A stretch of 39,197 nucleotides of DNA, from the NCBI RefSeq assembly GCF_006937785.1, contig NZ_SJEE01000043.1:1-39197 (forward strand), written 5' to 3'. The translations under genes were made by a program, and so were the position numbers. This DNA comes from Pseudanabaena sp. UWO311. Lineage in GTDB: Bacteria > Cyanobacteriota > Cyanobacteriia > Pseudanabaenales > Pseudanabaenaceae. Shown piece by piece: positions 6,477 to 12,710 of the stretch; the first letter of the stretch is position 1, and each line of letters begins with the position of its first letter. The notes beneath the pieces are model-generated. The model did no database searches. It saw only the letters and a program-made list of their open reading frames with translations, and was not told the DNA's origin.

Positions 6477-7100
6477 TTAAGGTTTAGTTTCAGAAATTGG
6501 GCTGAATTTGCAAGATTTGGTTAAGGCTTTCTTTAGTAAGTCTTGATAACTGTCGTCATCAATCTCAAATGCCCCAAATCTCTCAAGATGGGGATTCATT
6601 AACTGGGCATCAAATAAACTGTACCCTTGCGATCGCAAATGTTCTACCAATTTCACCATCGCGACCTTAGATCCTTCAGGAATTTTAAAAAACATTGATT
6701 CACCAATAAATACGCCGCGAATCGCAATCCCCAAAATCCCTCCTGCCAATTGATCCCCTTGCCATGTCTCAAAACTATGCGCCCAACCAGCTTGATGTAA
6801 ATTGCTATAAAGCGATCGCAGTTCTTTAGAAATCCATGTAGTTTCGCGATCGGCACAGCCTGCAACGACTTCCTCAAAGGAAGTATCAATCCTCACTTCA
6901 AAGCGATTTTGATTGATTACCCGTTTCAAAGATTTAGGATATCGAAAGCGATGATCAAGTGGGATCAGGGTGCGACTGTTGGTGTAATACCACTCAATCG
7001 GCTCTCCATCACCTTCTGACATCAAAAAATACCCTTGGGTATACCCTTCAATAACGCTGCGGATATTAAATCTTTCCACGAATAGATTTCCAACTCGCAA
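6477..7100 (-). CDS. aat: Leucyl/phenylalanyl-tRNA--protein transferase
   Basis: A 207-residue L/F-transferase (Aat). It moves Leu or Phe from aminoacyl-tRNA to N-terminal Arg/Lys of substrates, feeding the ClpS/ClpAP N-degron pathway in the cytosol. Diagnostic stretches are GYTQGYFLMSE, WYYTNSRTLIPLD, AGCADRETTWIS, GWAHSFETWQGDQLAGGILG, GESMFFK and LFDAQLMNPHLERFGA. The open frame starts with TTG at 7100; a GTG at 7079 is an alternative start, and no ATG occurs before the conserved domain. The protein is shorter than the roughly 230 residues typical of proteobacterial Aat. It stands alone on the minus strand with a hairpin after its stop. Confidence 0.92.
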   Translation of the reverse strand: MRVGNLFVERFNIRSVIEGYTQGYFLMSEGDGEPIEWYYTNSRTLIPLDHRFRYPKSLKRVINQNRFEVRIDTSFEEVVAGCADRETTWISKELRSLYSNLHQAGWAHSFETWQGDQLAGGILGIAIRGVFIGESMFFKIPEGSKVAMVKLVEHLRSQGYSLFDAQLMNPHLERFGAFEIDDDSYQDLLKKALTKSCKFSPISETKP

Positions 7101-7216: not shown

Positions 7217-7581
7217 TTGGTTTGAGATTAATTTAAAACTAGTGTAGAAAAGCAAATTAATTTTATGCAAATTAACTCGACTTGAATTTAGGTAGATACC
7301 TAAACAACTGTAACTTAATTTATTTCACAAGCTCTCTAGCCATAATCTCTCATAACAGTTGGTACTCAAACTGAATCAAGAAATATTTGGGTTGCTTGGG
7401 CAAAAATATTGTTGTATTTCTAGGTAAACAGGAAAATCATTTAATCTCGCAAATTATTTTACGATTGCTGTACTTCAACTTAATTAATTTAAAAAACTTT
7501 AAACAGATAATTAAACGAAAAATAAGCCGTGTATTAGTCAACTCGTTAAAGCGAAGATATAACTCCAAAAAGTCGTAGATA
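7217..7581. other. AT-rich non-coding stretch
   Basis: This is very AT-rich sequence with no supported gene. A 63-codon open frame at 7387-7578 has an Ile/Lys/Asn-rich composition typical of chance ORFs in AT-rich DNA, and I do not accept it as a gene. Confidence 0.5.
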
Positions 7582-7775
7582 AAATAAATGGCTTGCTCCA
7601 GCTAGGTAAATTTACCTGATCGAAGCAAACCATTTATTTGTATAAATTGTTCTTAAATTGGTATTGAGACTCAGAATCTTTAAATAAGCCGATTCCGTTT
7701 GAATGATCTTATTTTGCTAGATAGATCACAAAAACTGGGATCGCTTAACATTTTCTTTATAATCTGTTCTAGTAA
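7582..7775 (-). ncRNA. Structured repeat unit A, candidate small RNA gene
   Basis: This unit has a 58-bp imperfect palindrome (7582-7639, apex GGTAAATTTACC) next to a roughly 130-bp block that recurs in unit B. Shared blocks in order are TTGGTATT, TCAGA, ATAAGC, TCCGTTTGAAT, CTAGA, GGATCGCTTAA and TTTTCTTTATA. Read on the minus strand, TATAAAGAAAA could supply a -10 box, the conserved block the transcript body, and the palindrome followed by a T-rich tract the terminator. The strand choice is inference, and no coding potential is visible. Confidence 0.4.
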
Positions 7776-7789
7776 TATTTTTTGAGCCA

Positions 7790-7920
7790 AAATTCCTGAT
7801 TACGGATTAGATTCTAGTCAAGATTTTAATAAAAAATCAAGAATCGAAAACACTTACTCTCATTATACAGAGAGCATTATCATGATCCCCCCGCTTATCA
7901 AAACAAGATGAAATTATAAC
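7790..7920. other. Spacer between repeat units
   Basis: AT-rich sequence with small imperfect inverted repeats, for example GATTCT...AGAATC around 7810-7846 and CTCT...AGAG around 7857-7874. I see no gene. Confidence 0.4.
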
Positions 7921-7923
7921 GAA

Positions 7924-8122
7924 CACAAAAAACAAGTGTCCTGTTGCTAATGGGTAGAAACTACCGACTAGAATACAAGAACACTTGTTTTTTGTTTGTT
8001 TTATTAATTTGGTATTTAAATTCAGAGCCTATATATAAGCTGGCTCCGTTTGAATAATTGTATTGTCCTAGAAATTTTGCCACATTGGGGATCGCTTAAA
8101 CTTTTCTTTATAGTTATATTTT
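7924..8122 (-). ncRNA. Structured repeat unit B, candidate small RNA gene
   Basis: This has the same architecture as unit A. An outer stem (AAACAAGTGT with ACACTTGTTT, about 7929-7990) carries an inner GGTAG-AAA-CTACC hairpin, followed by the conserved block to about 8122. The two stems differ in sequence but keep the plan of an outer stem plus an inner GGTA/TACC stem, which suggests structure is conserved. On the minus strand the stem ends in a T6 run, as in an intrinsic terminator. Confidence 0.4.
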
Positions 8123-8372
8123 AGACCTTAGTTATTGAGTAACTATACTTATCATTCAAACCTCTAATAATGAGTATTTAAAGAAAGTTGTCAGAAAATA
8201 ATCAAACAACATAGTTTTATACTTTGTTCTTGATTATCTTGTCTCTTTCTTATCTATTTCACTTTGAGTTGATATTCATTTTAAAATCTTAGATTATTGT
8301 CGTAACTTCAAACAATATTTATAGAGACTGTCAGCGATCGCTACCTAATCTACCTGTTACCCATGTCACCAA

Positions 8373-8669
8373 CTACCTGAGCAATGCCTTTGCTATGTTG
8401 AGGCAAACAACAACTATTCCAAAAGCCCAGACAGGCAGAAAGAAAAGTGTGCCGCCAAATTCTCTTTGGGTAAGCCAGCCCTTTGACGGGCGAGAGCGGA
8501 AGCGTACTAATAAATCTATGGCGACCAAAGCGACTCCAACACAACACATGGTAATTGGATCGGCTAGTTTGAGGAGGAATCCACCTATTAAAGCTATGGG
8601 ACTAACTGCGACAAACATGAGCAGCCCCAAGATGTTCCCGCGAATTAGCAAAATAATCATAAACGGCAT
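8373..8669 (-). CDS. Small integral membrane protein coupled to a hybrid histidine kinase
   Basis: A 98-residue protein with three hydrophobic segments (about residues 3-35, 39-52 and 74-93) and a basic loop (RFRSRPSKGW) between the second and third. I do not recognise a named family, although similar short proteins with an ALIGGFLLKL-x-DP motif seem familiar from cyanobacteria. Its ATG (8667-8669) directly abuts the TAA of the kinase gene (8670-8672), reading TAAATG on the minus strand. Translational coupling is therefore likely, and the protein may help or modulate the kinase. No SD-like sequence stands out beyond this. Confidence 0.72.
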   Translation of the reverse strand: MPFMIILLIRGNILGLLMFVAVSPIALIGGFLLKLADPITMCCVGVALVAIDLLVRFRSRPSKGWLTQREFGGTLFFLPVWAFGIVVVCLNIAKALLR

Positions 8670-11600
8670 TTACTTTGTCTCTGAGGCTATGGATATGAGG
8701 TCTTGGATACTAATCGGCTTACTAATGAAATCATCCATACCTGCATCTAAGCAAGCTTGACGATCTTCGGGCATTGCATCAGCAGTCATAGCTACAATCC
8801 GCACAGGACTCTTTAAACCTTGCCGAATCATTTTTGTGGCAGTCAAACCATCCATTTCCGGCATTTGGACATCCATTAAGATCAAATCGTAGCTATCGTT
8901 TTGGACTGCTTGCACAGCCTCTAACCCATTATTAGCGATCGCATTAATTTGATAGCCTAGACGTTTGAGCATTAATTTAGCCACCATTTGATTTACTCGA
9001 TTGTCTTCTACTAGCAGAATTCGTAAAGGGAATTTCTTGGCAAAATTTTCGTTGATTTCAATCTCTTTTGCTAAAACTGTTGCTGGTTGATTAATCGTCT
9101 GGTTAATTAATAGAGCGATCGTGAAATAGAAAGTTGAGCCTTGAGATGTTAAGAGATCACGAGGTTGTGGTTTCCAATTTATGGGAGGGCTGCCGCCGAC
9201 TCGTCCGAGACTTTCTACCCAAATTGTGCCTTCCATCAAGTTTACGAGGCGTTTGCTGATTGCCAAACCTAGTCCAGTACCTCCATACTCACGACTAATA
9301 GAATTATCGGCTTGAGTGAATGATTGAAATAAGAGGTCAAGTCGATCGTTTTGAATGCCAATACCTGTATCGGAGATCGCAAACGTTAGCTCATATTTTT
9401 TATTGATCTCTTTGCCACTAACTGAAATTGAAACATGACCATTTTGAGTGAATTTAACAGCATTACCCACAAGATTGAGAAGGATTTGACGTAGTCGGGC
9501 AAGATCACCAATAACAGTTTTAGGAATGTTAGGTGAGATCGCATATTTAAGATCAATTTGTTTGGTGATTGCTTGATTTTCTAGTAGTTTACAAACTCCT
9601 CTGACTAATTCCTCTAGATTAAAATCTCTCGCTTCTAGTTCTAGCATTCCCGATTCAATTTTCGAGAAGTCCAAAATGTCGTTGATAATTGTCAACAGAG
9701 CCTGCCCACTATCTTTGATCGTTTTAACAAATTCTTTTTGCTCGGTTGTAAGTTCTGTCATTTCTAAGATCTGTGTCATCCCAATTACTCCATTCATTGG
9801 TGTGCGGATCTCATGACTCATACTTGCGAGAAATTCACCTTTAGCTTTAGTAGCAGCTTCGGCTTTTGCCTTAGCTTCGACTAAGGCAAGTTCTGCTTGT
9901 TTACGAGCAGAAATATCTCTGACAATTACTAAGCATTCATCTTTAGCGCAGGGAAAAACTCGTATTTCTTCATAACAGATCTGATCATTCTTGGTGATTT
10001 GATGCTCCCATATCTGTAACTCTCCTGCTGCGAGCGCTTGGGCAATCCTTTGCAACTGCAATTTTAACAAGTCTGGCGGTAGGACTTCCGAAAGGTGTTT
10101 TACCACAGGTAAAAATGTGCCAGATTGATCTACCAAAGGTGGGATAAATTCTATGCATGAGCCATCTCGCCTAACTCTCAATAGTAAATCTGGGATAGCA
10201 CTGAGAATAGCCCGATTTGACTGCTCACTTTGTTTTAGAGCGATTTCTACTTGTTTGCGATCGCTAATATCTGAAGAGATGATCGTCACCACCCAAGCGT
10301 TTTGGTGCGTGTCCCAGTGTGAACTATTTATTTGAGATATCCAACGCCAAGATCCATCTTTATGTTGCAATCTATAGTTATAAATTCCAGAACGTTCGGC
10401 AAAGATATTTTCGTATACCAGTGCTTCTACCGCTTGCCAATCTTCAGGGTTGGCGCGACTGAGCCAAAGTGATTGATCCGCGATTAATTCAGATGCACTG
10501 TAGCCGCTAACAGCTTCGCAACCATCAGAAATATAGTCAATTACAAGATTACCGTCAGCTTTGACAAGTAATCTTGTAATTGATGCTGTAGCACTATTTA
10601 AGATGTCATTGAGTTTAGTTTTTGAAATCTGGAGATCGATTTCTGCTTGTTTGCGATCGCTAATATTATGGGCAAGAGAAAGCATCGATATCAAATCGCC
10701 AGACTCATCGACTAATGTTGAGTTATACCATTCGCAATAAATGATGGAGCCGTTTTTGTGGTAGTTACGATTTTGGCAGATGACACTACTGGCTCCATCC
10801 AGCATTTTTGCTGTATCCCGAACCACGTACTCAAGATCATCCTCGAAGACAAACCGCCATTCATACAGGTACTTACCTAAGACTTCTTCGGCGCTCCAGC
10901 CAAATATTTCTTCGGCTTGTTTTGACCAGTAGATTACTCGAAATTCTCGATCCCATTGGATCGTCGCTAAAGGTGAGTTTTCGATGTGGTAGTTTAATTC
11001 ATTAAAAGTTCTCTTTAGATCGATTTCGGCTTGTTTGCGATCGCTAATATCGGTGATAGTGCTTAGATAGCTGACGATTTCCCCTTGATGATTCCGTTCC
11101 ACTCCAGATTGAACGGATACCCAAATGATAGAACCATCTGGATGCAGTCGCCGACATTCTGATTCATAGATGATATCGGGCTGAACTTTTACTTGTTCAA
11201 TATAGGCTGTCCAGTTGGCTAAAACTCTACCCCGATCTTCAGGATGTATATATTTAATCCATTCTTCACTGTAAAATTCTTCCAGAGATAATCCCGTAAT
11301 CTCCAAGCTCTTCTGATTTACATAAACACATTTGCCTTGTAGGTTATTCCGAAAAATTCCAACAGGAATTGACTCTAGCATTGAGTGATATTGTGCATCT
11401 GATTTACGAAGCGCTGCCTCAGAAACCCTGATATCCAATGATTCTTGCAACTGTTCAGACATCTGATTGAAAGACTGTGCCAGCCCATTTAACTCAGCGA
11501 TCGCATCATTCTCTGCTAAAGGCTCTTGCCATTCTCCTCTTGCGATCGCTTTGCTCGCTTGACTGAATCGCAAAATTGGCTTGGTAATCCAACGAGTTGT

Positions 11601-12710
11601 GATGACGCTAATCCCAGTTGCGACAATTAAAGTTATTCCACATAGCAGAAGTGTCCAGACTTTATTGGTTTGGATATCTGCCATAAATTCTGACTCAGGG
11701 ATGACAACGACAATTGTCCAATTCAGCCCATTGCGATCGCTGATCGATGTTACTTGAACGCTTTGCTGATCGCCATTAATCTCAAATTCAAATTGTTCTG
11801 ACTGACGAATATTTGCTAAGTTGCCATTGCGATCGCGTAAGTATTTTGCAGCACCACTAATTTGAAGATTTTGGCTGTCAATAGCTTTTAGTAACTTCTG
11901 ATCCTTCGCATTTTGCCCAAGCTGGTATGGCTTCTGGATCGCTGATGAAGTTGCTACCAAAGTTTGATCCTGCTCCATGATAAAGACTGTCCCTGTCTTT
12001 ATATCAATGGTTCGTAGAAAACGACTTATTTCTTCAAGGCTACGAATTCCATAGGTTACGCCCAAGAAATTTCCATTCTTGGGATCATAGACTGGCTCAG
12101 CTAGGGCAACTAATAGTTCTCCTGTATAGATATGGGGGTATACATTTGTCCAAGCAGCTCTCTGAGACTGCACGGCAGCTTTAAACCAAGGACGCTGACG
12201 GGAATCAAAGTTAACAGATGTTTCAGTAACTTGAGATGGAGAGCCATCAGGATTAGTGGTAAAGGTTCTATACTTGCCTCCACCATTTGGTGCTACCCGA
12301 ATACTAAATGTGCCATCCTTCAGCAATTCGACCGCGCGATGTCCTCCTGTAGGAGTTCCAAAACCAATAATTGTGATTGGCGACAAGGAATTAAGCTGCA
12401 TCTGTTGCCAAGCCTGTCGCTCTTGGCTAGAGAAGTCATCAAAGCTCCACAGGTTTCGACGGAAGTCACTGATGTTGTTTTTGTTGACTTGATCAATGGC
12501 TTGTAGATAGTTTGTGGTCTTTTCCGTAACGCGGGTAATTATTTCCGTCTTGAGTCTATTTGCTAGCTTATTAGCCGACTCCTGCGCACTTCGATAAGAT
12601 AAATATGCAACCAGTCCAACTGCACCAAAAATTTGTACCACAAACGCCAATAATATCAGCCATTGCAGTGGGATACTAAGTGCTCGAAAGGGTTTACGGT
12701 CAATAATCAT
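8670..12710 (-). CDS. Hybrid sensor histidine kinase, dCache-HAMP-4xPAS-HisKA-HATPase-REC
   Basis: A 1346-residue membrane sensor. An N-terminal membrane helix (about 14-36) precedes a periplasmic dCache_1-like sensor (about 50-345; signature [11 protein letters not shown] and ITVV/PESEF). A second membrane helix (about 352-372) is followed by HAMP ([15 protein letters not shown]) and four PAS/PAC units, each ending in I-(S/T)-DI-SDRKQ-type linkers. HisKA has phospho-acceptor His966 (MSHEIRTP). HATPase has N (LVGNAVKF), G1 (SDTGIGI) and G2 ([10 protein letters not shown]) boxes. The REC domain has Asp1280 ([10 protein letters not shown]). All catalytic residues are present. It likely passes phosphate from His966 to Asp1280 and then to an unlinked HPt protein. 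Its closest relative in the window is the interrupted kinase at 28108-31032. Confidence 0.93.

Follow-up and report, generated by a model that had tools for sequence, protein, structure and literature searches.

Two structured units beside aat

The window analyzed here is the whole 39,197-nt stretch of Pseudanabaena sp. UWO311 DNA (contig NZ_SJEE01000043.1) to which all coordinates refer, and it contains two similar structured units, both intergenic, that are predicted to encode small RNAs (sRNAs) A and B. The spacer that holds them is bounded by aat (6477–7100, minus strand), the gene for Leu/Phe-tRNA-protein transferase (Pfam PF03588 in a search of the open reading frames, ORFs, of the window), and by a 98-aa ORF (8373–8669, minus strand) that gave no match in the Pfam search; a hybrid histidine kinase gene (8670–12710, minus strand) comes next after this ORF. 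The units form a direct repeat of 112 nt (7650–7761 and 8001–8112; 74% identity, spacing 351), accompanied by two inverted repeats (7582–7610/7611–7639 and 7911–7942/7978–8009), and a long stem closes each unit on the minus strand. An earlier, sequence-only reading of this DNA had described two copies about 350 bp apart that share a conserved block; both are present, and the three motifs quoted from the block were located in the sequence. The repeat is not a product of chance, since a whole-genome search with copy 1 as the query retrieves copy 2 at E = 1.9e-13 and since relatives carry similarly spaced pairs. The predicted parts of the units are listed below (alignments A2 and A3 are defined in the next section).

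7925–8055, minus strand: predicted small RNA A, upstream copy, about 131 nt; both ends predicted, from a purine +1 after a -10-like box and from a stem with a T-rich tail (alignment A2)
7577–7704, minus strand: predicted small RNA B, downstream copy, about 128 nt; both ends predicted on the same grounds as for A (alignment A3)
8087–8112, minus strand: conserved upstream element of A, TATAAAGAAAAGTTTAAGCGATCCCC, about -57 to -32 (alignments)
7737–7761, minus strand: conserved upstream element of B, TATAAAGAAAATGTTAAGCGATCCC (alignments)
8062–8067, minus strand: probable -10 box of A, GACAAT (NANNNT conservation)
7711–7716, minus strand: probable -10 box of B, CAAAAT (NANNNT conservation)
8023–8048, minus strand: conserved 5' hairpin of A, 7 pairs and a 12-nt loop
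7672–7697, minus strand: conserved 5' hairpin of B, 7 pairs and a 12-nt loop
7930–7990, minus strand: terminator-like stem of A, which encloses a GGTAG/CTACC hairpin and has a T-rich 3' end
7584–7637, minus strand: terminator-like stem of B, which encloses an AGGTA/TACCT hairpin and has a weak T tail
8138–8149, no strand assigned: AGTA-N4-TACT palindrome, some 90 nt before the start predicted for A, which may be a regulator site

Inverted repeats and a tandem layout are also what a palindromic intergenic repeat or a mobile element, rather than a gene, could present. Such an element should be found in many places, whereas R1, a covariance model trained on this taxonomic family alone, returned these two places only when run at E ≤ 10 against the genome itself (5.2 Mb, 61 contigs; 150 of 3626 first-look candidates scored), and the genomes for which copies are listed under a second model, R2 (see below), hold one to three each. 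With neighboring genes that recur and a single well supported branch between A and B, this explanation is scarcely conceivable.

Conserved structure and putative promoter

Searching 58 related genomes with the DNA as the query gave matches in 34 at E ≤ 0.1, several of them weak, short and probably due to chance. An iterated hidden Markov model search then defined 46 units scoring above 50 bits in 29 sequences (28 fetched loci and the window), 17 of which carry a pair 304–357 nt apart and 12 a single unit. Homologous structured copies thus exist in relatives, as pairs of this spacing in 16 of the 28 fetched loci, two of these 16 being near-identical to each other. From these and further loci, we derived four alignments: A1 (44 core rows), A2 (22 A-type rows), A3 (17 B-type rows), with the near-identical L046 omitted, and A4 (47 wider rows, two from the window and 45 from other loci), which was fitted to a covariance model and consequently favors structure; MAFFT alignments, which are not fitted to a model, agree with A4 on the structure.

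RNAalifold folds the 44 core sequences into a single hairpin of 7 pairs with a 12-nt loop, with double changes in five of the seven pairs, and leaves the conserved blocks upstream of this hairpin unpaired. Over the 47 rows of A4, 99.1% of the 328 hairpin cells pair (shuffled mean 86.4), 57 cells carry changes on both sides, a count that 0 of 500 shuffles reach (mean 16.5), and the covariation score is 0.532 as against 0.276 (0 of 500), while slid versions of the hairpin pair just 22.6–52.3% of cells. The RNA can be assigned to the minus strand of the window because one G-U pair of the hairpin is nearly invariant (44 of 44 core sequences, 46 of 47 A4 rows) and because 325 of the 328 cells pair on the given strand versus 272 on the opposite one. 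The 3' stems are covarying as well: the 14 outer pairs of the A stem are formed in 97.1% of cells, with eight pairs changed on both sides (22 sequences), and in B (17 sequences), the 17 outer pairs are formed in 95.5% of cells, with 11 pairs changed on both sides, and the five inner pairs in 97.6%, with one pair so changed. For these stems, five of five measures exceed all 500 shuffles. The nested GGTA/TACC hairpin proposed for both units is upheld in part: the letters lie close together in 14 of the 22 A-type sequences and in merely four of the 17 B-type ones, so that in B the nested stem architecture, with its inner paired stem, is conserved but the letters at the tip are not.

We saw no shared reading frame and rejected a small protein as the product, since the longest frames in the RNAs predicted for the genus set are short and dissimilar between the copies. 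The family shows a conserved secondary structure but no conserved reading frame, as expected of a trans-encoded bacterial sRNA. Note that the first 80–90 nt of five other predicted members (L093, L100, L107, L109 and L118) contain a second GGGTC...GACCC hairpin after the first, within the same predicted RNA, as if the hairpin had been duplicated.

Upstream of the predicted starts, all 47 rows of A4 contain (i) a NANNNT box that ends between -6 and -9, which a control stretch 25 nt further up has in 16 of 47, and (ii) the element TAAAGAAAA-N2-TTA, with at most two mismatches, beginning between -54 and -60 (mean over base shuffles 3.0); the start base is a purine in 45 of the 47. The counts for the box and the element are biased, because the model used to select the rows includes the promoter columns. 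A TG in the extended position is found in 29 of the 47 rows; the two units of the window lack it. In the genome of UWO311, the 22-nt core of the element occurs at the two units and, with three mismatches, at two other places. The sequence-only reading had let both copies begin, on the minus strand, at a TATAAA box. These letters start the conserved element at about -57 and are probably not the -10 box, which more likely lies some 45 nt further downstream, as GACAAT in A and CAAAAT in B. An own promoter, as expected of an sRNA gene, is indicated by comparison, through the -10-like box and the upstream element.

Three types of regulator site were looked for in the 47 upstream stretches, and none is enriched there. 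With GTAN8TAC as the NtcA motif and with the consensus of HLR1 (RpaB site), we rejected (i) an NtcA box of the NsiR4 type (none, as against a mean of 1.9 in shuffles), (ii) an HLR1 site (none, with a mean of 0.1 in shuffles, which are thus near zero too) and (iii) a Pho box (one, as against a mean of 1.0). Nine letters common to the upstream element and the RNA loop were likewise dismissed, both occurrences being present in two of the 47 rows only. Further up, the palindrome AGTA-N4-TACT recurs with at most one mismatch at 17 of 17 A copies, nine of 17 B copies and seven of 12 single copies, and may be a second regulator site.

Neighbors, spread and descent

The genes around the family were surveyed in 49 wider loci, some of which share a genome. 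Upstream, a YqeG-type HAD phosphatase gene is found at 23 loci, mltG further up at 17 and a PAM68-like gene at nine; downstream, proB is found at 14, both yqeG and proB flank 12 loci, and aat lies nearby at seven. An NCBIfam search names one YqeG protein (TIGR01668) and one proB protein (TIGR01027) and gave no family match for the PAM68-like protein; the mltG and PAM68 labels are presumptive assignments from the sequences. At 19 of the 23 fetched loci of the genus, as in the window, aat comes next on the same strand; at one (L047) it points towards the units, and at three it was not detected nearby. These recurrent partners could suggest that the RNA is a cis-acting leader or attenuator of the downstream gene, aat in the genus and proB elsewhere. 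However, the closest ORF of 80 aa or more on the downstream side (stop-to-stop, hence approximate) lies on the same strand in 24 of the 49 wider loci and on the opposite strand in 25, the downstream genes vary between lineages, and two tandem units, each with its own 3' stem, fit a single leader poorly. Because both the orientation and the identity of the downstream gene vary, the RNA is not the leader of one gene, and the near-even split between strands points to stand-alone genes. A leader of aat or proB was thus ruled out by gene orientation, and we regard cis-acting control of the downstream gene in general as improbable.

The sequence-only reading had proposed beforehand that a covariance model be searched against cyanobacterial genomes. 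With R2, which was built from A4, a search of this kind matches 246 of 388 genomes of the class and 122 of 160 genera at E ≤ 0.001 (43 of these genomes supplied training rows); with R1, it matches 152 of 388 genomes and 83 of 160 genera at E ≤ 0.01, namely 24 of 26 genomes of the genus, 11 of 12 other genomes of the family and 117 of 350 outside the family. Both class searches used strict filters and scored eight candidates per genome, so that absences are soft and presence is a lower bound. Under R1, the 26 same-genus genomes comprise 17 with two matches, seven with one and two with none. The latter two, G014 and G008, each in hundreds of contigs, have no member under R1 (E ≤ 0.01) or R2 (E ≤ 0.001), which could reflect either loss of the gene or gaps in the assemblies. 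A phylum-wide search matched 107 of 386 genomes, and the matches listed all fall in the class itself, a weak control given that the 259 non-matching genomes are of unlisted class. A further locus, L142, is a family-pattern match on a 3870-base contig labeled Candidatus Gracilibacteria (JAAUUT010000238.1), which is probably a mis-binned cyanobacterial contig.

A second search, at E ≤ 10, covered 14 genomes, most of which had seemed to lack the family; 12 of the 14 give some match, and the 12 best loci were kept. A YqeG-type gene adjoins six of these loci, in genomes G388 (E 0.0096), G230 (0.014) and G265 (0.013), which were already among the 49 wider loci, and in G045 (0.011), G048 (0.12) and G064 (2.2), which are new. 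We take the six as putative positional orthologues, including those of the Synechocystis-genus genomes G388 and G230. The other six loci (L277–L281 and L283) have no YqeG-type neighbor; the sole matches of G014 (E 7.0) and G298 (1.0), which lack this neighbor, are taken as chance.

The unrooted tree built from the 44 core sequences has one branch, with 100/100 support, that separates all 16 A rows from all 16 B rows, as expected for one duplication without later mixing. Inspection by eye assigns the seven same-genus single copies to A-like (six) and B-like (one, L050) types; the tree places L050 with B and, among the A-like copies, three with A and three beside B, both weakly. In three other genomes, G058 (L098, L104), G083 (L105, L114) and G085 (L090, L110), two distant members each are present, one beside yqeG and the other beside the PAM68-like gene; these are older, dispersed paralogues.

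Proposed function and comparison with known sRNAs

Taken together, the two units are very probably tandem, separately promoted genes for two paralogous sRNAs of one cyanobacterial family. For these predicted RNAs, sequence comparison establishes (i) a minus-strand structure kept by compensatory changes, a 3' stem and a wide distribution in the class, (ii) an upstream element and a -10-like box at a nearly fixed distance and (iii) a next gene without fixed orientation and a well supported A/B split. Comparison with the relatives supports the proposal of duplicated minus-strand small-RNA genes with terminator-like stems.

Several observations weigh against this interpretation, besides the leaning of A4 and of the promoter counts towards it. 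The number of pairs of the 5' hairpin with a change on both sides, five, is no higher than in shuffles (mean 4.6; 328 of 500 as high), nor is the number of further pair types (11 versus 10.8; 396 of 500 as high), and double changes are absent from this hairpin within B alone and affect two of seven pairs within A alone. The 3' ends combine strongly covarying stems in A and B with a weak T tail in B, and a generic scan marked neither of the proposed -10 boxes nor, with its loop limit of 8 nt, either 3' stem as a terminator. Finally, 142 of the 388 class genomes, including two of the 26 in the genus, gave no R2 match at E ≤ 0.001.

The function of the predicted RNAs can be given by kind only: they are probably regulated, stand-alone and trans-acting. 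A regulator would bind the -57 element and switch the promoter. The RNA would end at the 3' stem and act in trans, by base pairing with mRNAs or by protein binding, through its unpaired conserved 5' end (AUUCAAA), its hairpin loop and its A/U-rich linker. A and B would derive from one duplication in the genus and may differ in targets or timing. Extending this, we lean towards a nearly class-wide, uncatalogued sRNA family with its own regulator site, often beside yqeG, in which the A and B paralogues of the Pseudanabaena type have divided target sets under one regulator; that A and B are kept with different stems and loops is as expected of such a division. The family, found in 122 of 160 genera, with its own promoter element and putative positional orthologues in the Synechocystis genus, is testable in model strains, which bring its induction, regulator and targets within reach, and the division of work between duplicated sRNAs could be studied on the A/B pair. 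Among the best studied of the widely conserved cyanobacterial sRNAs, PsrR1 regulates photosynthesis and IsaR1 iron acclimation.

The family could not be matched to a catalogued RNA family, although a name in print may exist. In the window, Rfam 15 gave no match above the gathering score, and ten matches below it in the region (viral, microRNA and other families) were taken as chance. Like the present family, Yfr1 and Yfr2 are described as widely spread cyanobacterial sRNAs, Yfr2 in several copies per genome. The conserved unpaired motif given for Yfr1, CACUCCUCACACC (PMC4734099), occurs in 0 of 47 family members. The lack of any Rfam match in the window tells against Yfr2 as well, provided that Rfam includes Yfr2. 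NsiR1 of heterocystous cyanobacteria may differ from the family, which here has two diverged copies about 350 bp apart.

The family could also have been described under another name, as IsaR1, as NC-1321 or as an entry without a name in one of the published sRNA tables. NC-181 of Synechocystis is presumably the later IsaR1. PMC3516471 presents NC-181 and NC-1321 (approximately 80 nt) as short, iron-induced RNAs, with homologues of NC-181 perhaps in widely different cyanobacteria, and the Synechocystis-genus member of the family would be about 85 nt by our own count. On the other hand, IsaR1 is given as 68 nt. Moreover, no sRNA is named beside yqeG, proB or aat in the portions available of PMC6091082, PMC6202907, PMC12850537, PMC5753348, PMC4734099, PMC5069720, PMC5386190, PMC2662882, PMC3516471, PMC11126600, PMC12090762, PMC13362535, PMC7154689, PMC6753628 and PMC5341163, which do not extend to the supplementary tables where such loci belong. 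We consider an existing name possible, if rather doubtful.

Among the closest known parallels to the predicted tandem sRNA genes is PsrR1 (SyR1, RF02701), the high-light sRNA of cyanobacteria. Like them, it is intergenic and widely conserved, measures about 130 nt, has a start of its own and carries a 3' stem. Its reported length of 131 nt, with conservation in cyanobacteria (PMC6091082 and PMC6202907), equals that predicted for A and could suggest identity. Yet RF02701 finds the true psrR1 gene beside hoxH in the Synechocystis-genus genomes G388 and G230 (71.4 and 68.6 bits), a positive control, and gives no match in the window, at the family members of G388 and G230 (E ≤ 10) or, at the gathering score, at 15 family loci among 20 sources; the PsrR1 core stretch is present in 0 of 47 relatives, and the absence of HLR1 upstream points the same way, though shuffles give almost none. 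Since the family member and PsrR1 occupy different places in G388 and G230, identity is refuted, and we leave it practically no chance. PsrR1 differs from the family in sequence, in structure and in genomic place, lying in the fabF–hoxH spacer whereas the members described here lie beside aat or beside yqeG, proB or PAM68-like genes.
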